This document shows positions 5,039 to 58,967 of a DNA stretch of 64,000 bases, in pieces. The notes below the pieces were generated by a model. It was not told the DNA's origin, ran no database searches, and worked only from the letters and a program-made list of their open reading frames with translations. This DNA is from Dolichospermum sp. DET69 (GTDB taxonomy: Bacteria > Cyanobacteriota > Cyanobacteriia > Cyanobacteriales > Nostocaceae), in the NCBI GenBank assembly GCA_017355425.1, contig CP070233.1, positions 1,032,501-1,096,500 of the forward strand, written 5' to 3'. Every line of letters begins with the position of its first letter. Positions within the stretch are counted from its first letter, which is position 1. The position numbers and the translations under genes are program-made.

Positions 5039-6115
5039 TTGAAAAAAGCAAAATTTTTATGTATGTTGTTACGGCCCAATTGGGTGCAATTTATAGGCAC
5101 AACCTGTTTGAGTTATATGTGGTTGACTACTGCTCTTTCAGTTACTCCTGCTTCTGCGGCTGGTGAAGTAGCTTCTAGAAACCATAGCAGTGAAGACTTA
5201 ATCACTAATCAAACCGCTTTAGAGACTAACTTACCGGATCTCAAACAAGTACTAGCGGAAAAAATAAAATTGGGAAAAAAGGCAGCATCTATTGTTGCTC
5301 AAAAACAACCACAGTTAATTGCCCAAACAAACTCTCCTGGAACTAGTGATAACAGTCCAATTGATGTTGACAACTTACGCCAGCAATTATTAATTGAACC
5401 CCTCGTTAAACCACCACTGCCAGCATCGGCAGCCAAGCGTACATATGCACCTGGACTTAGCTTTGGCGGACCCAGTGCTTTCGGCGCTGGTTGGGGTGAT
5501 GTATTCGTAGGAGCATCAGGGGCAACCAGGAGCTCTAAGAGCGGCGATAATCCTCTTGATGGGAGTACCAGCTTAGGTTTTGGTTTAGGAAATTCCCAAA
5601 AACTCGTTGGTCTAGAATTTGCCTATACTAACGGTAGTATCAAAAAGTTCGGAGCAAATGGAACTTTTGACCTCAAAGTTCACCGGATTGCTTATGCTAA
5701 AGGAACAAATCAAGTTGGTGTAGCTGCTGGCTGGAAGACCTTTGCTCAGTATGGTAATGAAGGTGTTAGAGATTCCAGTGCTTATGGTGTAGTTACAACT
5801 TACTCTCTCTTACGGCCTAACGATTCTGTTAATCCAATGCCCATCTCCTTTTCCGCAGGAGCAGGTGGTGGAGACTTCCGACAAGGTAATGCCAGCACTG
5901 GTGTATTTGGTGGAGTAGGTGTGCAAGTTCATCCCCAGGTTGGTGTAGGTTTTGGTTGGAGTGGAGTTGGTTTAAACATCGGGGCTTCCTTTGTTCCCGT
6001 GCCTACTATACCCTTAACAATTACAGCCCAGGGTGCGGATCTCACAGATAACAGCAGCGGTGGCAGAGTATTTGTGTTGAGCGTAGGTTATGGTTTCAAC
6101 TTCTTACCTAAGTAA
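5039..6115 (+). CDS. Secreted glycine-rich protein, possible outer-membrane beta-barrel
   Basis: No family recognised. The best start is the TTG at 5039: a strong GGGGAG lies 7 nt upstream, whereas the upstream GTG at 5024 would put that motif inside the gene. This gives 358 residues. A hydrophobic segment (FIGTTCLSYMWLTTALSV) followed by ASA fits a signal peptide ending near residue 45. From about residue 130 to the end the protein alternates Gly with aromatic and hydrophobic residues (LSFGGPSAFGAGWGDVFVGA, SLGFGLGNS, VGFGWSGVGLNIGAS) and finishes VLSVGYGFNFLPK, the look of an outer-membrane barrel strand. The next gene, 25 bp downstream, is also secreted, so the two form a pair. Barrel nature is inference. 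Confidence 0.6.
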   Translation: MKKAKFLCMLLRPNWVQFIGTTCLSYMWLTTALSVTPASAAGEVASRNHSSEDLITNQTALETNLPDLKQVLAEKIKLGKKAASIVAQKQPQLIAQTNSPGTSDNSPIDVDNLRQQLLIEPLVKPPLPASAAKRTYAPGLSFGGPSAFGAGWGDVFVGASGATRSSKSGDNPLDGSTSLGFGLGNSQKLVGLEFAYTNGSIKKFGANGTFDLKVHRIAYAKGTNQVGVAAGWKTFAQYGNEGVRDSSAYGVVTTYSLLRPNDSVNPMPISFSAGAGGGDFRQGNASTGVFGGVGVQVHPQVGVGFGWSGVGLNIGASFVPVPTIPLTITAQGADLTDNSSGGRVFVLSVGYGFNFLPK

Positions 6116-6140
6116 ATACTTTTTTATCTAGATAATCATC

Positions 6141-7001
6141 ATGTTAAAAATCAGAAATCTCATTTTGGCTCTCAGTCTTAGTCCCTTAATGTCCGTTGCT
6201 TGGCAATTACCAAACCAAGCGCAAATTATCGGTCCAAGTAAGGGTACCGCTGGCACTCCAAGTGGTGCTGCAACTAGTGGGTCAACAACTACCATTTTTT
6301 CCGCACCGGCTGATGGAGGTGGCGCGGCTGCTGGAGGTGGCGGTGGAGGTGGCGGTGCTGCTCCAGTAGCAGCATCACCTAATGTCAGTGTGGGACCAGG
6401 TGGTACTATTACCGTTTCACCTGCCGCAGCCGCAGAAGTTACTGCTGCTGCGGCTGCTGCTATACAGAGTGCAGCGGCTGATGGAGGTGGCACGACTGGT
6501 GGAGGTGGCACGACTGATGGAGGTGGCACTGCTGGTGGAGGTGGCACGACTGATGGAGGTGGCGCTCCTGGTGTCGCGGTTGTTGGACGTGGTGATGCTA
6601 CTGCTGCTGCTATTCTTGGCGGTGGTGCAGTCGGGCAGGCAACAGAAGCAGCAGTAACCGCAAATTTGGGTGGCGCAGGTGTTAGTTTAGCATTAGCAGG
6701 TGCGCTGACAGAAGCTCTTGGTGGTATTGTGGAATCGCCCAACGGTTCTATTCCATCAAGTTTTCCTTCAGCTCAGTTACCACAAGAGCAGCTAGTAGCT
6801 AGTAATAAAGCACTAAAAGGTTTAATCATCGCTCAGGGTGCAGCACCAACTGTAAACATTAATAAACTGAGTGATGCTATCAATGCATATAACCAAATTG
6901 TTGTAACAAGCAGTCCGGTAACTTTGCAAAAAATTTCACAAGACAAAGATTTCGTAGCCATTGGTACATTGCTCAAAAAATTAAGAGCGGCTATTGGTTA
7001 A
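6141..7001 (+). CDS. Secreted Gly/Ala-rich low-complexity protein
   Basis: Not recognised. The 286-residue protein starts with a signal peptide (residues 1-28, ending NQAQ). Residues about 50-150 are low complexity: a nine-glycine run, Ala-rich stretches, and a block of alternating GGGTT and DGGG units. The last 100 residues are ordinary sequence ending in an alpha-helical segment (PVTLQKISQDKDFVAIGTLL). It lies 25 bp after the barrel-like gene and before a strong terminator, so the two are probably one operon and may work together at the cell surface. The opposite strand shows a long proline-rich open frame that only reflects the GC-rich repeats. Fibre, adhesin or secreted structural roles are possible; none is shown. 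Confidence 0.6.
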   Translation: MLKIRNLILALSLSPLMSVAWQLPNQAQIIGPSKGTAGTPSGAATSGSTTTIFSAPADGGGAAAGGGGGGGGAAPVAASPNVSVGPGGTITVSPAAAAEVTAAAAAAIQSAAADGGGTTGGGGTTDGGGTAGGGGTTDGGGAPGVAVVGRGDATAAAILGGGAVGQATEAAVTANLGGAGVSLALAGALTEALGGIVESPNGSIPSSFPSAQLPQEQLVASNKALKGLIIAQGAAPTVNINKLSDAINAYNQIVVTSSPVTLQKISQDKDFVAIGTLLKKLRAAIG

Positions 7002-7025
7002 GAACAAACTTGATCAAACGCTTTG

Positions 7026-7068
7026 AAAAAATAACGGGGAGACACAAGAGCTTCTCCGTTATTTTTTG
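7026..7068. terminator. Terminator of the secreted-protein pair
   Basis: AATAACGG (7030-7037) pairs with CCGTTATT (7056-7063), extended by G-T and further pairs, then TTTTT. An A-run on the left side makes it usable from both strands. It lies 25 bp after the stop codon of the Gly-rich gene. Confidence 0.8.
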
Positions 7069-7092
7069 TAAAGAAAGACACAAAAGTTAAGT

Positions 7093-7428
7093 TACAGCAA
7101 ATTGTCATCAAACCCGGAACAAGAACCCCACCCCCAACCCCCCTGACAGGTGTAGGTTTTTTACAATTGGGTGAGGACAGGACTTGGAAGACAAGGCAGA
7201 CAAGGTGACAAGGGAGGAAAACCGGACAAGAAATGGATGATTGGTCATAAAACAAACCATAAATTGGGTATTTTATGGATAAAATCTTCCTTGTCTACTA
7301 TCCCTCCTTGTCTTCCTGGTCTTGCCTTTACAGAGAATATTAAAAACCTACACCTGTCAGCCCCCAACCCCCTCCCCGCAAGCGATGAGGGGGCTAAGAT
7401 GTACCTTATATGATTGGAAATCGCTGTA
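7093..7428. mobile_element. Family A miniature element copy 2, interrupted
   Basis: Same ends (TACAGC, GCTGTA), C-rich and AGGGGGCTAAGATGTACCT interior as the copy at 4475-4579. It is 336 bp instead of 105 because a separate element (7143-7360) is inserted in its C-rich tract. Confidence 0.65.
7143..7360. mobile_element. Miniature inverted-repeat element, family C, nested
   Basis: About 218 bp bounded by 19-bp perfect terminal inverted repeats, CTGACAGGTGTAGGTTTTT on the left and its complement AAAAACCTACACCTGTCAG on the right. The flanks on both sides read CCCCCAACCCCC, which may be a target duplication but could also be the natural repetition of the host element. No transposase is encoded; short open frames inside are not genes. 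Confidence 0.75.
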
Positions 7429-7931
7429 AGAGTTAGTCAAAAGGGTTTTATAAGCAAACAAGTGCAAGATTATTGACAATAAATGTTTAAAACTCTTGCA
7501 TTTTCACCTCTTCCTTCTGCCTTTTTCCTTCGTGTCCTTGGTCTCTATATCCCTCCGGTCTCGTCAGAGATACGTGGTTCATTAACTCCTGTACCGGCGA
7601 ATGGCCATTCGCCCCTACCTACTAACTTGATTCGGCAAGCCCTACTTGTGTTGACAAAAGCCCTGATGTTTTAGTTGAGAAAATCAAATACTTGAGATAT
7701 AATTGCCAAGATATCAAGTATTGAATAAGACTATTGCTGATGCAAAAACCAAGCAATGATAGTGATAGTCTTTTTGAACTCTGAAGTATTAGAAAGATTG
7801 CGTTGGGCTACAGCGTGTAAGTCTACACCAGGGATAACCGCTCCCATGCTCCTGTTGAAGTAGAAAATAAAGTCTAGCTTTGTCTAGGTTTTATATAGTA
7901 GAAAATAGGTGAAGACAACGGGGAAATAAAA
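7429..7931. other. Intergenic before lpdA, no gene seen
   Basis: No supported gene. A 63-codon open frame at 7483-7674 runs through low-complexity text (CCTCTTCCTTCTGCC) and a palindromic GGCGAATGGCCATTCGCC repeat at about 7597-7614, and is not credible as a protein. The lpdA promoter should lie in 7680-7920 but has no clear consensus. Confidence 0.5.
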
Positions 7932-9362
7932 GTGAGTCCTGGATTTGATTACGATTTAGTGATTATCGGCGCTGGTGTAGGTGGACATGGTGCTGCCTTA
8001 CACGCTATCAGTTGCGGTCAGAAAACAGCGATTATTGAAGCTGGGGATATGGGAGGAACCTGTGTAAACAGGGGCTGTATTCCTTCTAAGGCATTGCTGG
8101 CAGCTTCCGGAAAAGTTAGAGAATTACGCAATGCCCATCACCTCAAGTCTTTGGGAATACAAATTGGTAATGTCGAATTTGAACGGCAAGCGATCGCTGA
8201 TCATGCTAACAATCTCGTCTCCAAAATTCAAGGAGACTTAACCAACAGTCTCAAACGCTTGGGAGTTGATATTATTCGGGGTTGGGGTAAGGTATCTGGC
8301 ATACAAAAAGTTACCATCGTTACAGAAAGTGGTGAAAAAACCATTACTGCCCAAAATATCATCCTTTCCCCCGGTTCTGTCCCCTTCGTTCCCCCCGGAA
8401 TTGAAGTAGATGGCAAAACTGTATTTACCAGTGATCAAGGCGTTAAATTAGAAACTCTACCCAAGTGGGTAGCGATTATTGGTAGTGGTTACATAGGGTT
8501 AGAATTTTCTGATGTTTACTCGGCTTTGGGTTGTGAAATTACCTTGATTGAAGCTTTGAGTGAGTTAATGCCAGGGTTTGACCGCGATATCGCTAAATTG
8601 GCAGAACGGGTCTTAATTAACCCCCGTGATATTGAAACCAAAGTTGGTATTTATGCCAAAAAAGTCATCCCTGGTTCACCAGTAGTGATTGAGTTGGCTG
8701 ACTTTGAAACAAAAGAAGATTTAGAAGTTCTGGAAGTTGATGCTTGCTTAGTCGCTACAGGTCGTGTTCCCGCTACTCAAAATCTCGGTTTAGAATCTGT
8801 TGGCGTGGAACTTGACCGCCGCAATTTTATCCCTGTAAATGATAATATGGCGGTATTATTAGCCGGGGAAGTTGTCCCCTATCTCTGGGCTATTGGTGAT
8901 GCTACCGGAAAAATGATGTTAGCTCATACGGCATCGGCTCAAGGTATCATTGCTGTAGAAAATATGATGGGTCGTCACAAAACAGTTGACTATCGCAGCA
9001 TTCCTGCGGCCGCTTTTACCCATCCAGAAGTTAGTTATGTGGGCTTGACAGAAACAGCCGCCCATGCTTTAGGTTTAACTGAAGGTTTTGAAATTGCCAC
9101 CAGTAAGAGTTACTTTAAAGGTAATTCCAAAGCTTTGGCTGAAAATGATACTGATGGCATGACGAAGGTAATTTATCGTAAAGATACTGGCGAGGTCTTA
9201 GGTGTACACATCTTTGGTCCCCACGCCTCGGATCTAATTCACGAAGCCGCAGCCGCTATTGCTAATCGTCAATCTATCCAAACTCTCGCTTACCTGGTTC
9301 ATGCTCACCCAACGCTTTCAGAAGTTCTGGATGAAGCTTATAAACGGGCGTTAGTTAGTTAA
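7932..9362 (+). CDS. lpdA: Dihydrolipoamide dehydrogenase (E3)
   Basis: FAD-dependent E3 that reoxidises dihydrolipoamide with NAD, here most likely for the pyruvate dehydrogenase complex. The 476-residue protein has the FAD-binding GAGVGG (13-18), the redox-active disulfide CVNRGC with Cys44 and Cys49, the NAD-binding GSGYIG near 185, the second FAD motif WAIGDATG, and the C-terminal base motif HAHPTLSE. All are intact and the length is normal. It starts with GTG at 7932, 8 nt after GGGGAAA. It is followed by a 28-bp palindrome and then trpC on the same strand, an arrangement I believe is common in cyanobacteria. Confidence 0.96.
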
Positions 9363-9406
9363 TTGAAAATTATTCAGTTCTCAATTAGACATTTCCTGTG
9401 AAAGAT

Positions 9407-9434
9407 GTAGAGACGTTCCATGGAACGTCTCTAC
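9407..9434. repeat. Perfect 28-bp palindrome between lpdA and trpC
   Basis: GTAGAGACGTTCC followed by its exact complement GGAACGTCTCTAC, with CA/TG at the centre. A shorter, diverged relative is at 51018-51045. It may act as a transcription terminator or processing site, but there is no T-run. Confidence 0.75.
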
Positions 9435-9508
9435 AAAGATTCTAGAAAATACGCGTTTCTGAAGATGTCTATTATTAATTCCCAATCCAAAATCTAAAAT
9501 TAAAAAAT

Positions 9509-10408
9509 ATGCAAATCCGTCGTCGTTCACCCGGCACAGTTATTAATATTTCTATACTTCAATATCGATCCGCTATAGAAGGGGCTGCACCGAATAACAT
9601 TTTAGAAGAAATTGTTTGGCAAAAAGAAACAGAAGTTGAAAAAATGCGGGAAAGGCTACCTTTGCGGGAATTGCAAACACAAGCCCTATCTGCACCACCA
9701 ACTTGTGATTTTGTAGCCGCTTTACGTCAAGGCAAAACTAATCCGGCTTTAATTGCAGAAGTAAAAAAAGCTTCTCCCAGTAAAGGGGTATTTAGGGCAG
9801 ATTTTGACCCAGTAGCGATCGCTCAATCTTATCAAGCAGGTGGTGCTAGTTGTCTCTCTGTGCTGACAGATGTGAAATTTTTTCAAGGTAGTTTTGAAAA
9901 TCTATTGCGTGTCCGTGCTGCGGTAGATTTACCATTGCTATGTAAAGATTTTATCATCTATCCCTACCAAATGTATTGGGCGCGAATTCATGGAGCAGAT
10001 GCAGTTTTATTAATAGCAGCAATTCTCAATGATCAAGATTTGCAATACTTTATCAAAATTGCCAATAACCTAAAAATGGCAGCTTTAATAGAAGTCCATA
10101 ATTTAGAAGAATTAGATCGGGTTTTAGCTTTAGATGGTGTTTCTTTAATTGGGATTAATAATCGCAATTTAGAAGATTTTTCTGTTGACTTGCAAACTAC
10201 TTGTCAGTTAATGACAGCTAGAGGTGAACAATTACAAGCCAAGAACATTCTTGTAGTCAGTGAATCAGGATTACATCACCCAGAGGATTTAAGTGTAGTT
10301 AAAAAAGCAGGTGCATCTGCTGTACTGATTGGTGAATCCTTGGTCAAACAGCCAGATCCTCAGTTAGCAATCACCAATCTGTTTGGTTATACTGCAAACG
10401 GTTCATAG
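9509..10408 (+). CDS. trpC: Indole-3-glycerol phosphate synthase
   Basis: Closes the indole ring in tryptophan synthesis, converting CdRP to indole-3-glycerol phosphate. The 299-residue protein has the family landmarks: [14 protein letters not shown] (catalytic Lys), [55 protein letters not shown] and [10 protein letters not shown]. The first 60 residues (HNILEEIV-type helix preceded by [13 protein letters not shown]) are an extension that cyanobacterial TrpC proteins share. ATG at 9509 is the only sensible start. It is not clustered with other trp genes. Confidence 0.95.
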
Positions 10409-44228: not shown

Positions 44229-47009
44229 ATGCTAAAACTTTTGTTGGGCGATCCCAACGCTCGTAAACTTAAAAAATACCAACCTTACATTACAGAAATT
44301 AACCTCTTAGAGGAAGACATTAAGCCACTGTCTGATGAACAGTTAAAAGCTAAAACCGTCGAGTTTAAACAAAGGTTAGCCAATGGCGAAACACTAGATG
44401 ATATTTTACCTGAAGCCTTTGCTGTTGTTAGAGAATCAGGGCGGCGGGTGCTAGGGTTGCGGCACTTTGATGTTCAATTACAGGGTGGTATAATTCTGCA
44501 TACTGGGCAAATTGCAGAAATGAAAACCGGTGAAGGGAAAACTTTAGTAGCTACTTTACCAAGTTATTTAAATGCCCTGACAGGTAAAGGTGTTCACGTA
44601 ATTACCGTTAATGATTACCTGGCACGTCGGGACGCGGAATGGATGGGTCAGGTACATCGGTTCTTGGGGTTAAGTGTGGGGCTAATTCAGTCCACTATGA
44701 CCCCCAGTGAACGCCAAAAAAACTATCAGTGTGATATTACCTATGTCACCAACAGCGAGATTGGCTTTGATTATCTCCGGGATAATATGTCTACTTCCAT
44801 GGCTGAGGTGGTGCAACGTCCCTTTAATTTCTGTGTTATTGACGAGGTAGACTCGATTTTAGTTGATGAGGCACGGACTCCATTAATTATTTCTGGTCAG
44901 GTGGAAAGACCGACAGAAAAATACTTACAAGCAGCGGAAATTGCGTTTGCGCTCAAAAATGAGGAGCATTACGAAGTTAATGAGAAGGATCGTAACGTTC
45001 TTTTGACGGATGAGGGTTTTGCCGAATCGGAAAATCAGTTGGGTGTAACAGATTTATTTGACCCGGAAGACCCTTGGGCGCATTTTATGTTTAATGCGAT
45101 TAAAGCCAAGGAATTGTTCCTCAAGGATGTGAATTATATTGTCCGCAATGATGAAGTTGTGATTGTGGATGAATTTACAGGTCGGGTATTACCTGGACGA
45201 CGTTGGAGTGATGGTTTACACCAAGCTATTGAAGCCAAGGAACACGTAGAAATTCAGCCAGAAACCCAAACTTTGGCAACAATTACCTATCAAAACTTGT
45301 TTTTGCTTTATCCCAAGTTAGGGGGAATGACAGGAACTGCAAAAACGGAAGAGGTAGAGTTTGAGAAGATATACAAACGGGAAGTGACGATTATTCCCAC
45401 TAATCAGGTTAGAAGACGGGAAGACTTGTCTGATATGGTGTTTAAGACTGAACCAGGTAAGTGGGGAGCGATCGCTAAAGAATGTGCCGAAATGCACGAA
45501 AATGGTAGACCTGTGTTAGTGGGTACAACTAGCGTCGAAAAATCTGAACTTCTTAGCCGACTCCTCAAGGAAATGAACATTCCCCACGAGTTACTGAACG
45601 CTAGACCAGAAAACGTGGAACGGGAAGCGGAAATTATTGCTCAAGCTGGACGCAGTGGTGCTGTAACTATCGCTACCAATATGGCAGGACGGGGTACAGA
45701 TATCATTCTCGGTGGTAACTCTGAGTATATGGCGCGGTTAAAACTCCGGGAATATTTTATGCCCCGCATTGTTAGCCCTGAAGATGATGAATTTGGTGTA
45801 CAACGGGCTTCTGGACTACCTATGGCTGGTAGTGGTGGTGGTCAAGGTTTTGTTCCTGGGAAAAAGGTAAAAACTTGGCGGGCTTCTCCAGAAATTTTCC
45901 CCACCAACTTAAAAAAAGAGACAGAACAGTTGTTGAAAGAATCCGTAGAAGTAGCTGTAAAGGCTTATGGTGAGCGGAGTTTATCAGAACTGGATGCAGA
46001 GGAAAAGGTAGCGGTAGCCGCAGAAAAAGCCCCTACTGATGACCCGGTAATTCAGAAATTGCGGTCAGCCTACCAGCAAGTTAAGCATGAATATGAAGAA
46101 TTTACGACCACTGAACATGATGATGTGGTAGGTAGAGGTGGTTTGCACGTTATTGGTACAGAACGTCACGAATCACGACGGATTGACAACCAGTTGCGCG
46201 GACGGGCGGGCAGACAAGGCGACCCCGGAACGACAAGATTCTTCCTCAGTTTAGAGGATAACCTATTACGCATATTTGGGGGCGATCGCGTTGCGGGCTT
46301 GATGAATGCTTTCCAAGTGGAAGAAGATATGCCCATTGAGTCGGGGATGTTAACCCGCAGTTTGGAAGGCGCACAGAAGAAGGTAGAAACCTATTACTAC
46401 GACATCCGTAAACAGGTGTTTGAGTATGACGAGGTGATGAATAACCAACGTCGGGCTATCTATGCAGAACGTCGCCGGGTGTTGGAAGGTCAAGACTTGA
46501 AGGAACAGGTAATTAAATACGCGGAAAAAACGATGGACGACATCGTTGATTATTACATTAACCCTGATTTACCTTCGGAAGAATGGGAGTTAGAAAAGTT
46601 GGTGGATAAGGTGAAGGAGTTTGTTTACCTGTTGGCTGATATGCAGTCTGTCCAGTTGGAGGACATGGTAATGATGGAGATTAAAGCTTTCCTCCATGAA
46701 CAAGCGCGAATTGCCTACGATATGAAGGAAGCGCAAATTGACCAAATTCAACCGGGTTTAATGCGTCAAGCGGAACGGTTCTTTATTCTCCAACGCATAG
46801 ATACTTTGTGGCGGGAACATTTGCAACAAATGGATGCTTTGCGTGAGTCGGTTGGTTTGCGTGGTTATGGTCAAAAGGACCCGCTGATTGAGTATAAGAG
46901 TGAGGGTTATGAGTTGTTCCTGGATATGATGGTGAATATCCGCCGTGATGTGGTTTATTCTCTGTTTATGTTCCAGCCTCAAGCGCAGCAAACTGCTGAG
47001 ATGGTTTAA
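44229..47009 (+). CDS. secA: Preprotein translocase ATPase SecA
   Basis: 926 residues. Motor of the Sec pathway at the plasma and thylakoid membranes. Walker A GEGKT at 101-105, Walker B DEVD in [20 protein letters not shown], preprotein cross-linking region, motif [14 protein letters not shown], and [29 protein letters not shown]. An insert about 520-620 ([20 protein letters not shown]) is a cyanobacterial trait. The C-terminus ends at QAQQTAEMV without the zinc-binding tail, also normal for cyanobacteria. ATG at 44229, strong downstream terminator. Confidence 0.98.
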
Positions 47010-49628: not shown

Positions 49629-49826
49629 ATGACTACATCTATTGCTGACCAAGTTATTGAACAATTAAAAATCATGCCTCAAGACTTGCAATATCAAGTC
49701 CTAGAATTTGCCCGCAATTTGACAAGTTCAAAAATCAAAGGTGTTCCCGGTAAACAATTACTGCGTTTTGCAGGTTCAATACCCAAAGAAGACTTACAGC
49801 TAATGAGTGAAGCAATAGAAGATTAA
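49629..49826 (+). CDS. DUF2281-like antitoxin, orphan
   Basis: 65 residues from ATG 49629 (frame open to 49611): TTSIADQVIEQLKIMPQDLQYQVLEFARNL, the DUF2281/VapB-like pattern of antitoxins that precede PIN toxins. No PIN gene follows; the next gene is on the other strand. Probably a survivor of a lost TA pair. Confidence 0.72.
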   Translation: MTTSIADQVIEQLKIMPQDLQYQVLEFARNLTSSKIKGVPGKQLLRFAGSIPKEDLQLMSEAIED

Positions 49827-49835
49827 TCAATAAAC

Positions 49836-50966
49836 TTATCCCACCAAAACTGGTGATTTATACAGTTCAAATATTGATTGACTATCAGGTGAATTCCTGA
49901 TTTCATCTATCATAAATTCAATCATCGTTTTAGCAATTGAGCATTGCAAAATACCCGCAGAATCGTAAACTCTCTCACTAGGAATTGCTTCAGTAATTGC
50001 AATCTGATTGCACTTGCGATCAAATTGACAACTGCGACAAACTTCTCCTCTTTGTATCCGATTATTGGTAACATTGGCAAAAGCCAGAGATTGAAAAATT
50101 TCGCTCACTGTTTGTTGAAAAATATTACCCATTAAACCTTCTGGTAAATAAGCATCACCATGAGGATAAACATCACCATTAGTATTCACAATCCAAGCCC
50201 AATCATGAATGTAGGGATTATAAATGTCAATTGTAGAGTTGACTAAATATCTCACTGCTGCTTGAAAATACTCATTAAGTGGTTGCACAGTAATATTAGA
50301 AATTTGGTTAAATTGAGCTTTTGCAACTAGTTTCAAAGCATTAATTGTTTGCTGATAAGTTAATAATAAATGACTCATTCTTGCAGGAACAATTTCCCGA
50401 CTGCTATGAATAGGTAAAATTCGATAATCTATTCCTAATTCATTATAAAACTGATAAGTTTGCACTGCTTTATCTACATTTAGCGCGTGCAGAACAGAAA
50501 TTCCACCAACGGGAATTTTTCGATCTAATAAAATTTGTAAATTATCTAAAACCTGATCTTGAGAAACTTTACCAGCAATATCAAGTCGCTGTTCTCCAAA
50601 TACATCTAAGGAAAATCCTAGATGTATTTCTAGTTCTTCCAATAAATCTAAGGTTTTAGAGGATATTTTAAATAAATTACTCTGAACAGTAGTTCTCGTA
50701 TCAATCCCATTATTAGTAAAATATTTATCTCTGAGTTGACAAATTGCTCGAAGGTAATTATGGGGTAATAAAAGTGCTTCACCTCCATGAAAAATGAGAG
50801 ATAAGGGAAAGTTTTTTTGTTGCTTAATTATATAAGCTGCCATATTTTTGAAAAAAAACTCTATTTCCTCTAAAGACATCCGATCTTTATTTGCTAGTTC
50901 ATCATATTCATAGCAATATGTACATCTTAAATTACATAATTTGCTCAATTTCATAATTAGGTGCAT
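49836..50966 (-). CDS. Radical SAM/SPASM peptide maturase, GrrM/OscB-like
   Basis: 376 residues. Radical SAM cluster CX3CX2C at Cys11, Cys15, Cys18 (LCNLRCTYCYE), then SLIFHGGEALLL and the TIM-barrel body. The C-terminus carries a SPASM domain (GEVCRSCQFDRKCNQ ... LQCSIAK) for auxiliary clusters. The gene directly upstream on the same strand encodes a protein with Trp-X-Asp/Gln and Phe-X-Asn motifs, the substrate pattern of three-residue cyclophane enzymes such as GrrM/OscB in cyanobacteria. I infer it crosslinks aromatic side chains there. ATG 50966 has AAGGAA 8 nt upstream. The radical SAM family is certain, the specific subclass is inference. Confidence 0.82.
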   Translation of the reverse strand: MHLIMKLSKLCNLRCTYCYEYDELANKDRMSLEEIEFFFKNMAAYIIKQQKNFPLSLIFHGGEALLLPHNYLRAICQLRDKYFTNNGIDTRTTVQSNLFKISSKTLDLLEELEIHLGFSLDVFGEQRLDIAGKVSQDQVLDNLQILLDRKIPVGGISVLHALNVDKAVQTYQFYNELGIDYRILPIHSSREIVPARMSHLLLTYQQTINALKLVAKAQFNQISNITVQPLNEYFQAAVRYLVNSTIDIYNPYIHDWAWIVNTNGDVYPHGDAYLPEGLMGNIFQQTVSEIFQSLAFANVTNNRIQRGEVCRSCQFDRKCNQIAITEAIPSERVYDSAGILQCSIAKTMIEFMIDEIRNSPDSQSIFELYKSPVLVG

Positions 50967-51017
50967 TATTTTAAATTCCTTAATTTCGTAATATATAGTG
51001 GGTTTTATATAATCGTT

Positions 51018-51045
51018 ATAGAGACATTATAGGGAACGTCTCTAC
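51018..51045. promoter_or_regulatory. Hairpin between precursor and maturase genes
   Basis: TAGAGAC/GTCTCTA arms with a 12-nt loop lie between the two genes (gap 87 bp). It is a diverged member of the GTAGAGACGTTCC palindrome family at 9407-9434. In this position it could lower maturase expression relative to precursor, as often seen in RiPP operons. Confidence 0.5.
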
Positions 51046-51053
51046 ATAATTTT

Positions 51054-51707
51054 TTATCGTTGAATTTGTTGAATTTGTTGAAGTTTTAGTTCTTGTTGAT
51101 TAATCTTTTGTAAGGTGTCACGCACTACTGAATTAGGTAAGGTACGTTGCACATTAGTAAATCTAGAATCTATTGCACTACCGCGTGACCAATCTTTCCA
51201 ACCTCCTTGGTCTGTCCATGAAGATTGATCCCATGAACCATCAGCAGCAGCAGGATTTTTCTTCCCTAAATCAAATATAGCCTGATTGATGACTTTGCCT
51301 TGAGCGACTTCAATAATTAAATTGTTGGAAAGTTTGTATTGACCATCAGGTGCAATTGTTTTTTTGCCATTTTTATCAACAACAAATATCTGTTTACTAT
51401 CAATTAGAATTGTTTCTGCACCTAATTGATTAGCTAATTTTTGATCTTTAACAACAATCAAATCATATTGCTTAGTTGTACGCAATTGACGGATTTGTCT
51501 CAATTTTACGGAATTTTGGGCTATTGGATTGGGACTTGCTGACGCTACGGGAATTAAGTATTGATCTAAGCTGCTTAATAGTTGGTTTGCTAAACCACTT
51601 TGAGTAGTTAATGGGATAAAAGCAGTTAAAATTAGGGCTGTTTGTCCTAATTTTTGTCTAGTTATATGGTGATCTTTTTTGTTGCTATTATTATCTTGAA
51701 TAGACAT
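51054..51707 (-). CDS. Candidate cyclophane-type RiPP precursor with long leader
   Basis: 217 residues from ATG 51707, chosen because a clear GAGGAG lies 7 nt upstream; the frame is open 50 codons more. Residues 18-42 are a hydrophobic signal-like segment (LGQTALILTAFIPLTT). Residues about 60-150 are a mixed alpha/beta region of unknown fold. Residues 156-185 hold the suspected core: Trp159-Asp-Gln, Trp164-Thr-Asp, Trp170-Lys-Asp, and Phe183-Thr-Asn, each aromatic-X-Asp/Asn/Gln, spaced by Gly/Ser. Such tripeptides are crosslinked by three-residue cyclophane-forming radical SAM enzymes. Known GrrA/OscA precursors are about 90-120 residues and Gly-rich, so this longer form is unusual. A Gln-rich tail follows (residues 190-217). 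Next gene is the maturase. Confidence 0.65.
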   Translation of the reverse strand: MSIQDNNSNKKDHHITRQKLGQTALILTAFIPLTTQSGLANQLLSSLDQYLIPVASASPNPIAQNSVKLRQIRQLRTTKQYDLIVVKDQKLANQLGAETILIDSKQIFVVDKNGKKTIAPDGQYKLSNNLIIEVAQGKVINQAIFDLGKKNPAAADGSWDQSSWTDQGGWKDWSRGSAIDSRFTNVQRTLPNSVVRDTLQKINQQELKLQQIQQIQR

Positions 51708-52143
51708 GGTATATCTCCTCAGTGTGTTAAAGTAAATACAAGGATAAAAGAGATCAATGAAAATACTAAATTCAGAAATTATGAACTGTTTTACATCTAT
51801 TATCAGCACAAAATATTCGTATTCACAGATATATTCATGCTGAAAATAGCCGTACAAAAATACAGCGTTTACGTAAGATTCAAGTCAACTTGATACTAAG
51901 AAAATGCTTATGCAGTAGGGGTTTTGCTAAACCTTGGTGACAGGACTAGTGGACTTTTGAAAAAGTTCCCATGTAAAAGTTAAAATGGTTTTTGAACCGG
52001 GTTAAAAAAGTTAAGTATGACTATACTATGGCAAAAATCACTCTAAAAGTATCAGAGAAACTATCTCAACCACTAGCAGAAATAGATAATAAACGGATTA
52101 AATATTGAATTATGATGATTAAAGCCAGTAAAAATAAATAAGT
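51708..52143. other. Intergenic with antitoxin-like micro-ORF
   Basis: A possible 26-codon remnant at 52028-52108 reads MAKITLKVSEKLSQPLAEID, the start of a DNA-binding antitoxin-like protein, then stops. The rest has no gene. The precursor promoter lies on the minus strand between 51720 and 51850. Confidence 0.4.
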
Positions 52144-52914
52144 ATGACAGAAAATATTGATATAAAAGCCAGTTGTAACAACGTAATTATAGTATTGGTA
52201 GAACCAGCCGGTCCATTGAATGTCGGTTCAGTGGCCAGAGTTATGAAAAATTTTGGCTTATCTAAATTAATATTAGTCAATCCTCAATGCGATCGCTCAT
52301 CTTCTGATGCTATAAAAATGGCAGTTCATGGCAAAGACATTTTAGAATCTGCGGTCATAGTAAACACATTACCAGAAGCATTGCAGGGGTGTGTCCGGGC
52401 CATTGCTACCTTTGGCCGTGAATACAGTGGACAAAAACCCCTAGAAACACCCCGCATGGCTTTACCCTGGTTATTAGCAGAAACCCAAAAGCCCGTAGCT
52501 TTAATTTTTGGTAGGGAAGATAGAGGATTAACCAATGAAGAATTAAATTATGCCCACAAATTAGTTTTTATTCCCACCAATCCAGAATATCCATCTTTGA
52601 ATTTAGCGACTGCGGTTTCTATTTGTTGTTATGAATTGTCACAATCTACGGATTTATTTATAGATAAAAATATACCTGCTTCAGAAGTTGCTCCTTTAGA
52701 TGCTATGGAAGCTTATTATCAACAATTGGAATCTCTATTGCTTTCCATTGGTTATCTTTATCCCCATACCGCAGCTAGTCGCATGGAAAAGTTTCGCCAC
52801 CTGTATAATCGGGCTTATTTACAAACTGATGAAGTAGGAATGTTACGAGGGATTTTACGGCAGGTAGAATGGGCAATTAATAGGCAAAAACCTGAAAAGG
52901 GTGATCATAGCTAG
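52144..52914 (+). CDS. trmJ: tRNA (cytidine/uridine-2'-O-)-methyltransferase TrmJ
   Basis: SPOUT-class methyltransferase, 256 residues. The N-terminal IIVLVEPAGPLNVGSVARVMKNFGL (motif 1), VALIFGREDRGLTNEEL (motif 2) and IPTNPEYPSLNLATAVSICCYEL (motif 3) are intact. The C-terminal helical part is that of TrmJ, which methylates ribose 32 of tRNAs. The tRNA-Met gene lies 13 bp beyond the stop on the other strand. ATG at 52144 follows an AT-rich leader. Confidence 0.92.
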   Translation: MTENIDIKASCNNVIIVLVEPAGPLNVGSVARVMKNFGLSKLILVNPQCDRSSSDAIKMAVHGKDILESAVIVNTLPEALQGCVRAIATFGREYSGQKPLETPRMALPWLLAETQKPVALIFGREDRGLTNEELNYAHKLVFIPTNPEYPSLNLATAVSICCYELSQSTDLFIDKNIPASEVAPLDAMEAYYQQLESLLLSIGYLYPHTAASRMEKFRHLYNRAYLQTDEVGMLRGILRQVEWAINRQKPEKGDHS

Positions 52915-55658: not shown

Positions 55659-55775
55659 AGTTAAGTGAAAAATTAATTTTTTTTGTCAGAATCAGGATTT
55701 ACAGGATTTTAAGATTTACAGGATGTTTATTGGGTATACTGTTCAAGTGATAAAAAGTTGTTTAGACAATAATTT

Positions 55776-56726
55776 TCATACATCTTCTAACCACTTTTGC
55801 AAATCGTCTATAGTATCTAAATCGAATATTTCCTCTCCTAAAGATTCAATTATTTCTAAATTTAAACTTCTAATTCTGGTTTCTAATTCCATCCCAATGC
55901 TGCCAAATTTTCTATTAATTTGACGGATAATTAAATTTTTTTCTCTTTCAATTCCTCTTTCAATTCCCCTTTCGATTCCTTGTTCAATTCCTTGTTCAAT
56001 TCCTTGTTCCATCCAAGTAGTAACTATTTGCATAACTTTTTCCTTTTCTTTTGGTATAAATGAACTTACTTCGGCTTCAAATGTCTGTTCTTCTATTTTA
56101 TTCAATCTCAAATATGTGTCAATAAACCCTGATATCAATTGCATTTTTGCTGGGTTTAGTTTTAATGTCACTAATAACCTTAAACATTCTGCTTTTACTT
56201 TTGGCCTATCTGCTGGTTCTATGTTCATTTTTGACATTAACGCAGATGCTACTGGATTTTGACTATTTAAAAAATCTCTCCAGTTGAGACGATTTAGTTG
56301 TACTACTTGATAATTAAATTTTAGCACTTCTAAATCAGGAAAGTTAATTTCATAGTTATTAACTGCTACTTTTTTCGGTACATCATAAGAAAATATAACG
56401 ATAGGATATACTGGTAAGTCAAATTTTTGGTGTAATTTAGCAAAGTAGTTAAATAGCCTTTTATTGAATTTTGATTTTGCACCAGATTCTGCTTCAATAT
56501 GAACTAGAAAGTAAAAAGGTTTACCTAAAAATTTTACTTTAGCTACTAAATCGGCTTCATGTTTATCTCCTGTTGTCACATCGGTAAATAGTTCTTTATC
56601 TAATAATGTAACTGAGTTGGTGTCTAGATATGTCAGAACTTGGGGAAAGAAGAGTTCTATAAATTCTATAAAAAACGTGGATATTAATTCTTTAAATAAG
56701 CGATCATGATCTATACTTTCGGTCAT
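55776..56726 (-). CDS. Rpn family PD-(D/E)XK nuclease, copy 1
   Basis: 316 residues from ATG 56726 (frame open further through repeat DNA). Rpn/YhgA-like fold: IDHDRLFKELISTFFIEFIELFFPQVL, TGDKHEADLVAKVKFLGKPFYFLVHIEAES with the PD-(D/E)XK residues Asp and Glu, then NKRLFNYFAKLHQKFDLPVYPIVIFSYD. A stretch of five GIEQ/GIER tetrapeptides (about 235-255) precedes the helical C-terminus ending LQKWLEDV. Near-identical copies are at 58041 and 59048. Rpn proteins promote RecA-independent recombination or act in defence; the ancestral role is debated. Confidence 0.85.
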   Translation of the reverse strand: MTESIDHDRLFKELISTFFIEFIELFFPQVLTYLDTNSVTLLDKELFTDVTTGDKHEADLVAKVKFLGKPFYFLVHIEAESGAKSKFNKRLFNYFAKLHQKFDLPVYPIVIFSYDVPKKVAVNNYEINFPDLEVLKFNYQVVQLNRLNWRDFLNSQNPVASALMSKMNIEPADRPKVKAECLRLLVTLKLNPAKMQLISGFIDTYLRLNKIEEQTFEAEVSSFIPKEKEKVMQIVTTWMEQGIEQGIEQGIERGIERGIEREKNLIIRQINRKFGSIGMELETRIRSLNLEIIESLGEEIFDLDTIDDLQKWLEDV

Positions 56727-56785
56727 GTTTTTGTCAGAATTAGGATTCACGGGATGTTTATTAGTGACGATATTCTGTATTTTGT

Positions 56786-56817
56786 CTGATAGCGTAGCGT
56801 GGCGCAAGCCATATCAG
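56786..56817. repeat. 32-bp palindromic insert, second copy
   Basis: CTGATAGCGTAGCGTGGCGC...TATCAG; differs by one base from the copy at 38799-38830. Both sit inside AATCCTGA-type repeats, as if inserted into the same target text. Confidence 0.8.
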
Positions 56818-57678: not shown

Positions 57679-58040
57679 TTTAATTTCCCTTTTGTAACAG
57701 CATCAAAATTGATTTCCTCTTTCTCTCTATTATAATATATTTCTATGATTAATACCTTTAAAGGATCAAGAATACGTCTTATTTCTTTTTCATGAGCAGT
57801 CAGTAGGGCTGGATATACAAATCAACTCATAATAATACCAATATTAAATTTCATGATCTTCAATGTCTGATGATCAATTAAAAAATTAATTTTTTTTGTC
57901 AGAAATGGCCATAGCTTGCGTGACGACGTAGGAGTCATACGCCTCCCGTCAGGAATACGAGATTTACAGAATGTGAAGATTGACAGAATGTTTGTTGGGT
58001 ATACTGTTCAAATGATAAAAAGTTATTTAGCCAATAATTT
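57679..58040. other. Intergenic before Rpn copy 2
   Basis: No gene. Holds the 3' flank text of the Rpn unit (GTTGGGTATACTGTTCAAATGATAAAAAG) from 57990 and, near 57906-57945, a palindromic AAATGGCCATAGCTTGCGTGACGACG insert. AT-rich otherwise; the VapBC promoter is expected at 57680-57760. Confidence 0.6.
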
Positions 58041-58967
58041 TCACACATCTTCTAACCACTTTTGCAAATCGTCTATAGTATCTAAATCGAATATTTCCTC
58101 TCCTAAAGATTCAATTATTTCTAAATTTAAACTTCTAATTCTGGTTTCTAATTCCATACCAATGTTGCCAAATTTTCTATTAATTTGACGGAGAATTAAA
58201 TTTTTTTCTCTTTCAATTCCTCTTTCAATTCCTTGTTCAATTCCTTGTTCCATCCAACTAGTCACTATTTGCATAACCTTCTCCTTTTCTTTGGGTATAA
58301 ATGAACTTACTTCGGCTGCAAATGTCTGTTCTTCTATTTTATTCAATCTCAAATATGTGTCAATAAACCCTGATATCAATTGCATTTTTGCTGGGTTGAG
58401 TTTTAATGTCACTAATAACCTTAAACATTCTGCTTTTACTTTTGGTCTATCTGCTGGTTCTATGTTCATTTTTGACATTAACGCAGATGCTACTGGATTT
58501 TGACTATTTAAAAAATCTCTCCAGTTGAGACGATTTAGTTGTACTACTTGATAATTAAATTTTAGCACTTCTAAATCAGGAAAGTTAATTTCATAGTTAT
58601 TAACTGCTACTTTTTTCGGTACATCATAAGAAAATATAACGATAGGATATACTGGTAAGTCAAATTTTTGGTGTAATTTAGCAAAGTAGTTAAATAGCCT
58701 TTTATTGAATTTTGATTTGGCACCAGATTCTGCTTCAATATGAACTAGAAAGTAAAAAGGTTTACCTAAAAATTTTACTTTAGCTACTAAATCGGCTTCA
58801 TGTTTATCTCCTGTTGTCACATCGGTAAATAGTTCTTTATCTAATAATGTAACTGAGTTGGTATCCAGATATTTCAGAACTTGGGGAAAGAAGAGTTCTA
58901 TAAATTCTATGAAAAACGTGGATATTAATTCTTTAAATAAGCGATCATGATCTATGTTTTGAATCAT
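58041..58967 (-). CDS. Rpn family PD-(D/E)XK nuclease, copy 2
   Basis: 308 residues from ATG 58967, almost identical to copy 1 except at the N-terminus (IQNIDHDRLF) and in the GIEQ/GIER stretch, which here has three units instead of five. It lacks nothing in the nuclease core (EADLV, HIEAES). The intergenic unit after it matches copy 1 and copy 3, so the duplicated block includes flanking DNA. 80 bp separate its start from the end of copy 3. Confidence 0.85.
   Translation of the reverse strand: MIQNIDHDRLFKELISTFFIEFIELFFPQVLKYLDTNSVTLLDKELFTDVTTGDKHEADLVAKVKFLGKPFYFLVHIEAESGAKSKFNKRLFNYFAKLHQKFDLPVYPIVIFSYDVPKKVAVNNYEINFPDLEVLKFNYQVVQLNRLNWRDFLNSQNPVASALMSKMNIEPADRPKVKAECLRLLVTLKLNPAKMQLISGFIDTYLRLNKIEEQTFAAEVSSFIPKEKEKVMQIVTSWMEQGIEQGIERGIEREKNLILRQINRKFGNIGMELETRIRSLNLEIIESLGEEIFDLDTIDDLQKWLEDV

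Follow-up and report, generated by a model that had tools for sequence, protein, structure and literature searches.

The window, which is the whole stretch of 64,000 nucleotides analyzed here, carries on its minus strand a pair of genes that looks like a precursor gene followed by the gene of its radical SAM/SPASM maturase. The precursor (51054..51707, defined by its ORF translation and by homologues) is a protein of 217 aa without Cys, and the sequence AGGAG lies 7 bases upstream of its ATG. After a gap of 87 bases follows the maturase of 376 aa (49836-50966), recognized by its Pfam domains and by alignment. This two-gene cassette probably makes a secreted protein in which Trp is stapled to nearby residues by the radical enzyme. 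The gap contains a hairpin with a 12-bp stem (51017..51046, minus strand), and none of 200 shuffles folded as stably (-15.5 kcal/mol, z -3.39); as a possible attenuator, this hairpin could lower the expression of the maturase relative to the precursor. One of its arms, GTAGAGACGTT, occurs again at 9407-9434, where it makes up each arm of an inverted repeat. Inspection by eye of the ORFs listed around the pair revealed neither a protease gene nor a dedicated exporter gene. A SecA-like ORF of 926 aa, also recognized by eye, lies about 3 kb away on the opposite strand (44229-47009); it is probably a housekeeping gene, yet its product is the motor on which export of the precursor would depend.

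The maturase contains the radical SAM cluster motif CX3CX2C at residues 11-18 (50913..50936, minus strand), which is present in all 35 aligned enzymes, and SPASM auxiliary cluster cysteines at positions 310, 313, 319, and 342 (49941..50039, minus strand), which are present in 15/15 enzymes. In the larger alignment, each SPASM column holds Cys in 34 or 35 of 35 sequences, and the sole exception is a GrrM whose Cys at 310 is shifted by one place. The window enzyme scores above both Pfam cut-offs (Radical_SAM, 61.6 bits against 29.5; SPASM, 26.9 against 21.5). Thus, the clusters named in the earlier note are confirmed, with the refinement that just four SPASM cysteines are conserved. SPASM domains follow a cysteine pattern of GX4C plus CX2CX5CX3C. 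The GX4C cysteine and the fourth cysteine of CX2CX5CX3C are absent from the 34 family enzymes and from one GrrM, and with only four cysteines conserved, a single auxiliary cluster would be expected. Loss of the GX4C cysteine was considered as a unique trait and dropped, since this cysteine is also missing from a cyanobacterial GrrM that scores above its cut-off. The first cluster cysteine is residue 11, which leaves the maturase no room for an N-terminal recognition domain.

The GrrM/OscB membership suggested earlier does not hold for this enzyme, which reaches 71.2 bits against a TIGR04261 cut-off of 310. No match above this cut-off was found in the window's own genome, and the window precursor matched neither the GrrA/OscA precursor family nor any other family in an NCBIfam search at E 0.1. 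The best NCBIfam match of the enzyme is DynA (NF041298) over residues 4-320, with 105.1 bits against a cut-off of 450. GrrM, FxsB, XyeB, AmcB, and YhhB are likewise below cut-off (the best of them AmcB, 76.3 against 425), and the enzyme falls far under all curated family cut-offs listed. Each of the 15 enzymes scanned matches, among other families, DynA, DarE, GrrM, AmcB, YhhB, and FxsB, four of which are named as cyclophane-forming. All 15 match DynA at E <= 1e-10 (best 4.5e-51), and the best GrrM match has an E-value of 2.2e-30; from these best E-values, the other 14 enzymes presumably also fall below the DynA and GrrM cut-offs. Weaker matches include heme d1 and viperin-type enzymes, and the phage-family search returned general radical SAM families and one family of unknown function, and nothing else.

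The precursor can be divided into an export segment, a middle domain, a core, and a tail. Residues 1-57 (51537..51707, minus strand) form a hydrophobic export segment with an SGL..QL motif and an A-x-A at 55-57 that, judged by eye, resembles a signal peptidase I site. Among five aligned precursors, Q36, S37, G38, L39, Q42, L43, A55, and A57 are invariant in this segment. Residues 98-142 (51282..51416, minus strand) form a conserved beta-like domain (..DGxYxLSxGxII..GxI..), supported by alignment and by omega values and present in the clade A precursors described below; inspection by eye found no such domain in clade B or Bradyrhizobium precursors. Pfam and phage-family searches with the window precursor matched no family, and neither NCBIfam nor Pfam detected a Nif11 leader on it. 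The best match to a known structure (E 0.015) was judged to be due to chance.

The gene pair is under purifying selection. Against a 78%-identical homologue in a relative (G058), omega is 0.145 for the maturase, 0.16 for the middle domain, and 0.18 for the core, and it rises to 0.43 in the export segment, 0.51 in the linker, and 0.64 in the last 14 residues; all of these are rough values, as the segments are short. For the segment 188-203, which contains the tail motif, the value of 0.46 comes from 16 codons, too few to carry weight. The domain looks no less constrained than the core, which favors a function in the product or during maturation over that of a passive spacer. The extra middle domain to which attention had been drawn is an inherited and conserved part of the precursor, as both the clade A alignment and its omega indicate. 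Furthermore, in two proteins of genome G012, the unit of domain, core, and tail motif is repeated inside one protein.

The core (residues 157-185; 51153..51239, minus strand), delimited by alignment and by residue counts at position +2, contains all four Trp of the precursor within 15 residues. WDQ (159-161; 51225..51233) and WTD (164-166; 51210..51218) are identical in the G058 homologue. In WKD (170-172; 51192..51200), W170 is invariant among the five aligned precursors, as are W173 and R175 of WSR (173-175; 51183..51191), a fourth Trp triplet on the same minus strand that had been overlooked. The FTN triplet (183-185) is present as the earlier note reported, together with WDQ, WTD, and WKD near the C-terminus, but as a crosslink site it fails, since it is not conserved and reads LSN in the G058 homologue.

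A W-X-[QEDRN] rule holds across the family. Among 59 distinct 7-residue Trp contexts from 37 precursors, the residue two places after Trp (W+2) is D, E, N, Q, or R in 53, and the same residues occur 22, 11, 23, 13, and 13 times at offsets -2, -1, +1, +3, and +4, respectively. These W+2 counts overstate independence because of shared ancestry and because near-identical contexts are counted apart; the other offsets serve as internal controls. Gln (19) and Glu (17) together account for 36 of the 59 contexts, followed by Arg (9), Asp (7), and Leu (3), with Asn, Lys, Cys, and Trp once each. In 27 representatives standing for 36 precursors, 39 of 53 Trp are followed at +2 by D, E, N, or Q, a value not reached in any of 10,000 shuffles of the cores. 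The core boundaries were set by hand and enclose 53 of the 54 Trp of these proteins. An orphan precursor (L043) was excluded from the shuffle test and from the Trp-context counts, and the precursors of L050, L051, and L054 were left out as identical to those of L035, L034, and L036. In clade B, Phe obeys the +2 rule to a lesser degree than Trp (32 of 51 at +2, compared with 9-20 of 49-51 at other offsets); as a general site, Phe was rejected, with no +2 excess over all 27 representatives (26/78). A fixed spacing with a variable middle residue is as expected from an enzyme that links residue i to i+2.

These counts bear out the view that aromatic-X-acid/amide triplets are a conserved feature of the precursors. 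Triceptides are recognized by aromatic-X-X3 triplets in a precursor adjoining a radical SAM/SPASM gene, and this arrangement is found here. By the criterion of the earlier note, homologues of the precursor that lack such triplets or do not adjoin a radical SAM gene would count against the reading, and such cases were found in part. The orphan L043 lacks Trp altogether, and about 6 kb of sequence to its left and right contain no maturase; the Nostoc precursor L036 lies beside a maturase and contains WKL alone. However, by eye, 17 of the 18 maturase loci of the window's clade have at least one Trp/Phe-X-[DENQR] core site in a neighboring precursor.

A conserved motif follows the core. In the window, this is VRDTLQKI (195-202; 51102..51125, minus strand), which we propose as a follower or recognition element; in the leave-group-out test it scores 19.9, a value reached by 0 of 1000 shuffles. 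The Gln-rich tail noted earlier has a conserved part, which holds this motif. In clade A, the motif resembles V[RKQE][DE]T[LF]..I and was recovered behind the core in 11 of 18 leave-group-out tests, with at most 22 of 1000 shuffles scoring as well. The other seven tests gave no significant motif at that place: two have the motif as expected (103 and 175 of 1000 shuffles), and in another (G012a) it was scored elsewhere (16/1000). In clade B, 15 of 16 precursors contain SA[VL]..F..[LIQ] (SAVDTFRSL-like), a pattern that was fitted by eye and is missing from the G658 precursor. By pattern, the tail motif is also missing from the Nostoc and Bradyrhizobium precursors. A single motif shared by both clades was considered and rejected, as no clade A precursor scores significantly with the clade B motif (best 55 of 1000 shuffles); the profile-to-profile match is weak and at most suggestive (589/20,000), so that the tails carry two motifs that are perhaps related. 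The clade B motif is common to precursors with signal peptides and precursors with Nif11 leaders, which suggests that it is a C-terminal recognition element.

To place the pair in its family, we compared 35 loci. At 34 of them, the enzyme has an assigned neighboring precursor, while the flanking genes vary; which ORF is the precursor was judged by eye, on the basis of position and sequence. The reading of the pair as a long precursor adjoining a radical SAM/SPASM enzyme is thereby supported. When 34 family enzymes were placed in a tree together with one GrrM, the GrrM sat on a very long branch, and the family split into clade A, which includes the window (17 rows, support 93/92), and clade B (17 rows, 84/97); neither split earns the star of the tree tool. 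The tree was built without the enzyme of L089, which was found later, and without an enzyme fragment in G635 (L071), which is counted among the 35 loci. With L089, clade A comprises 18 loci, each with a precursor ORF upstream on the same strand, and its precursors consist of a long hydrophobic segment (SGL..QL, A-x-A), the conserved domain, and the core. Clade B comprises 17 loci, 16 with an assigned precursor and one (G635) with the enzyme fragment only. Its precursors place the core behind either an ordinary-looking signal peptide or a Nif11 leader ending in GG (L047, L068, and L074). In these three, Pfam Nif11 is above cut-off, and the same precursors bear the family core and tail motif; that of L068 also matches TIGR03798 (48.6 bits, cut-off 32.3). 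The Bradyrhizobium precursor has a short basic leader. Collectively, these loci form a family without a curated name. Its precursors have in common the putative site of stapling and a tail motif, of which there are two versions, and differ widely in the rest.

Among 16 sampled genomes of the genus, the enzyme was found in the window's own genome, and the other 15 had no match. Of 211 genomes sampled from Nostocaceae, the window's family, which takes in loci sequence-identical to Nostoc, Calothrix, and Plectonema records, 22 contain it (E <= 1e-50); in the phylum sample, it was found in 9 of 386 genomes with a narrower profile (E <= 1e-30). An alignment scan of genome contigs yielded six loci, including one in Bradyrhizobium uaiense; a Clostridium locus (L039), which matched over 46 residues, was set aside because its radical SAM enzyme is probably unrelated, and L038 is the same contig as L047. 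A single-sequence scan of the contigs confirmed no relative, and a search for plasmid-borne copies gave no match. The precursor profile matched 12 times in 6 of the 386 genomes, and 10 of the 12 matches lie near a maturase. The other two are the orphan L043 and an unexplained match in G486 (E 4.9e-5, 54 residues), which was left out because no radical SAM ORF was flagged in L049. The orphan (L043, 6423-7025) is a homologue of the N-terminal part and the domain, and its genome has two complete pairs elsewhere. At another locus (L040, 5031-12243), a tandem array combines two near-identical maturases with four full-length precursors and a short copy; two of these precursors repeat the domain-core-tail unit internally.

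The pair lies at an exchange site (49820-52144) adjoining a methyltransferase gene and tRNA-Met. The flanking methyltransferase gene was found in all 16 genus genomes, and the corresponding loci of seven relatives were inspected, none of which shows a trace of the gene pair. In five of the seven, the two flanks adjoin an interval of 53 to 954 bases that takes the place of the window's 49820-52144 and contains small toxin-antitoxin-like genes (by eye) or nothing recognizable; for the remaining two, no second flank turned up within 1.5 kb. Since the flanks are joined without the pair in relatives, the pair behaves as a cassette, either gained here or lost there. Elsewhere in the window, near-identical short plus-strand ORFs (55723-55923 and 57916-58188) are likely copies of one element, and the former is antisense to an ORF of 343 aa (55776-56807) that, by eye, looks like an Rpn/PD-(D/E)XK nuclease.

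Two further proteins accompany maturases at other loci. Downstream of six clade B maturases (L061, L067, L068, L069, L070, and L074) lies a conserved protein, about 295-320 aa long, in which HLDSWD is followed further on by HDAS; in L047 it is fused to two other maturases (5172-7388 and 7385-9544). By eye, it looks like an iron/2-oxoglutarate oxygenase; Pfam gave no match for this part in three stand-alone copies and the two fusions. Directly 3' of the maturase in Calothrix and Plectonema (L034, 7191-7652; L035, 7185-7616) is a protein with YHGSPHKL close to its N-terminus that is weakly similar to DUF6886, below cut-off, and by eye perhaps has an ADP-ribosyltransferase-like fold.

The reading that we favor, with a probability of about 0.6, is that the cassette yields a secreted crosslinked protein with cyclophanes between Trp and residue i+2, formed by a maturase that is guided by the tail motif. 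The CX3CX2C cluster of the maturase would cleave SAM, and a hydrogen atom would be abstracted from the residue at +2 of each core Trp, namely, Gln, Asp, Asp, and Arg. The resulting radical carbon, most likely C-beta, would then be joined to the Trp ring to give up to four three-residue cyclophanes. The substrate might be found partly through the post-core VRDTLQKI and possibly through the small middle domain. Subsequently, the precursor would be exported by means of its N-terminal hydrophobic segment, on the assumption that a Sec-type route accepts a chain that already carries crosslinks. The crosslink and its atoms, the recognition role, and export are what we infer from the conserved features of the pair.

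Related chemistry is known. At i+2, C-beta of Arg or Asn is bonded to C6 of Trp by XncB, and C-beta of Asn or Asp is bonded to C7 of Trp by OscB (PMC11002830). WTD, WKD, and WSR would fit this chemistry directly, whereas WDQ would require linkage to C-beta of Gln. Gln and Glu, the commonest +2 residues in the present family, are not among the linked residues described in the accessible part of that source. Putative Aro-Xaa-Xaa-Asn and Aro-Xaa-Asn motifs have been reported in other clusters (PMC9062424), and the accessible part of that report gave no match to the present precursor-maturase family. Among the titles and abstract openings listed for openly accessible literature on triceptides, cyclophane-forming enzymes, GrrM/GrrA, dynobactin, and follower peptides, none describes the family, an absence of little weight as most subscription papers lie outside this coverage.

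The most serious rival, which we consider unlikely, is that the same W-X-[QEDR] sites undergo another reaction, such as C-N or C-O bond formation, closure of a longer ring, hydroxylation, or desaturation. The closest curated profile, DynA, does not represent a three-residue cyclophane family, and the longer ring of dynobactin is an example of such an outcome. Gln and Glu at +2 are also unusual relative to the enzymes described in the accessible part of PMC11002830. In contrast, the +2 signal is sharp and single, and the counts of 13/59 at +3 and at +4 argue against a longer ring. It is improbable that the precursor is instead a secreted structural or adhesive protein that uses its Trp motifs for binding while the enzyme modifies something else. 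The orphan homologue, with neither Trp nor a neighboring maturase, would fit such a protein, but the pairing at 34/35 loci, the several precursors beside duplicated maturases in G012, and the Nif11 leaders of sister-clade precursors speak against it.

An ordinary GrrM/OscB triceptide system with an enlarged precursor would explain the similar type of enzyme, the loss of the GX4C cysteine as in cyanobacterial GrrM, and the aromatic-X-acid sites with which that idea began. We regard it as very improbable, because the enzyme does not reach the family cut-off (71 bits against 310) and shares 25% identity over 183 residues with a GrrM above cut-off, because GrrM stands on its very long branch, and because the precursor has a conserved motif behind the core and no family match. 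A thioether (sacti/ranthipeptide) maturase is scarcely credible. Cys pairs do occur close to the Trp site in several clade A precursors, such as WIECIGPYC in G012, and the PapB profile weakly matches 15/15 enzymes; however, the window precursor has no Cys, which excludes such bonds there, 15 of 27 representative cores also lack Cys, and the Cys pairs would be compatible with disulfides formed after export.

Returning to the tail-guided cyclophane reading, we would class the family, from these sequences, as Gln/Glu-type cyclophane RiPPs with a post-core motif, often carrying a domain. A bolder version, which we offer tentatively and hold to be possible but doubtful, is that the family is steered from behind, with the C-terminal motif recognized and the N-terminal part free to vary. 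For the window, this version would imply three or four rings from Trp to Gln, Asp, or Arg in an untrimmed secreted protein of about 160 residues, with Gln and Glu as new linking residues. If the cyclophane reading is correct, it would add a further family of maturases, one that has no curated name and occurs in 22 of the 211 sampled genomes of the window's family, and would extend i to i+2 crosslinking to Gln and Glu. Such crosslinks would then be set in a domain-carrying secreted protein and not in a small peptide. Moreover, a C-terminal recognition motif would provide a handle for stapling chosen sites in foreign proteins, and a convenient one because the N-terminus stays free.

Among known systems, DynA is the best match of the window enzyme, yet at 105 bits against a cut-off of 450; the dynobactin precursor and its bonds are of another kind. 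Similar to Nif11-leader RiPPs (TIGR03798), the clade B precursors of L047, L068, and L074 combine a Nif11 leader with the family core and tail, and the window precursor lacks this leader. GrrA/GrrM (OscA/OscB, TIGR04261) is closer in several respects: it is also cyanobacterial, both enzymes have a four-Cys SPASM domain without the GX4C cysteine, and the GrrA precursor, like that of the window, has a hydrophobic export segment. The score of the window enzyme and the lack of a family match for its precursor set the two systems apart. In the triceptide systems (XncB, OscB, and MscB), too, aromatic-X-X3 triplets are found in a precursor that accompanies a radical SAM/SPASM enzyme. Linkage of Trp to Asn, Asp, or Arg at i+2 belongs to their known chemistry, according to the accessible part of PMC11002830, whereas here Gln and Glu dominate (36/59). 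In contrast to triceptides, the core of the present precursors lies inside a protein, before a conserved tail motif, and in clade A it is accompanied by a conserved middle domain.
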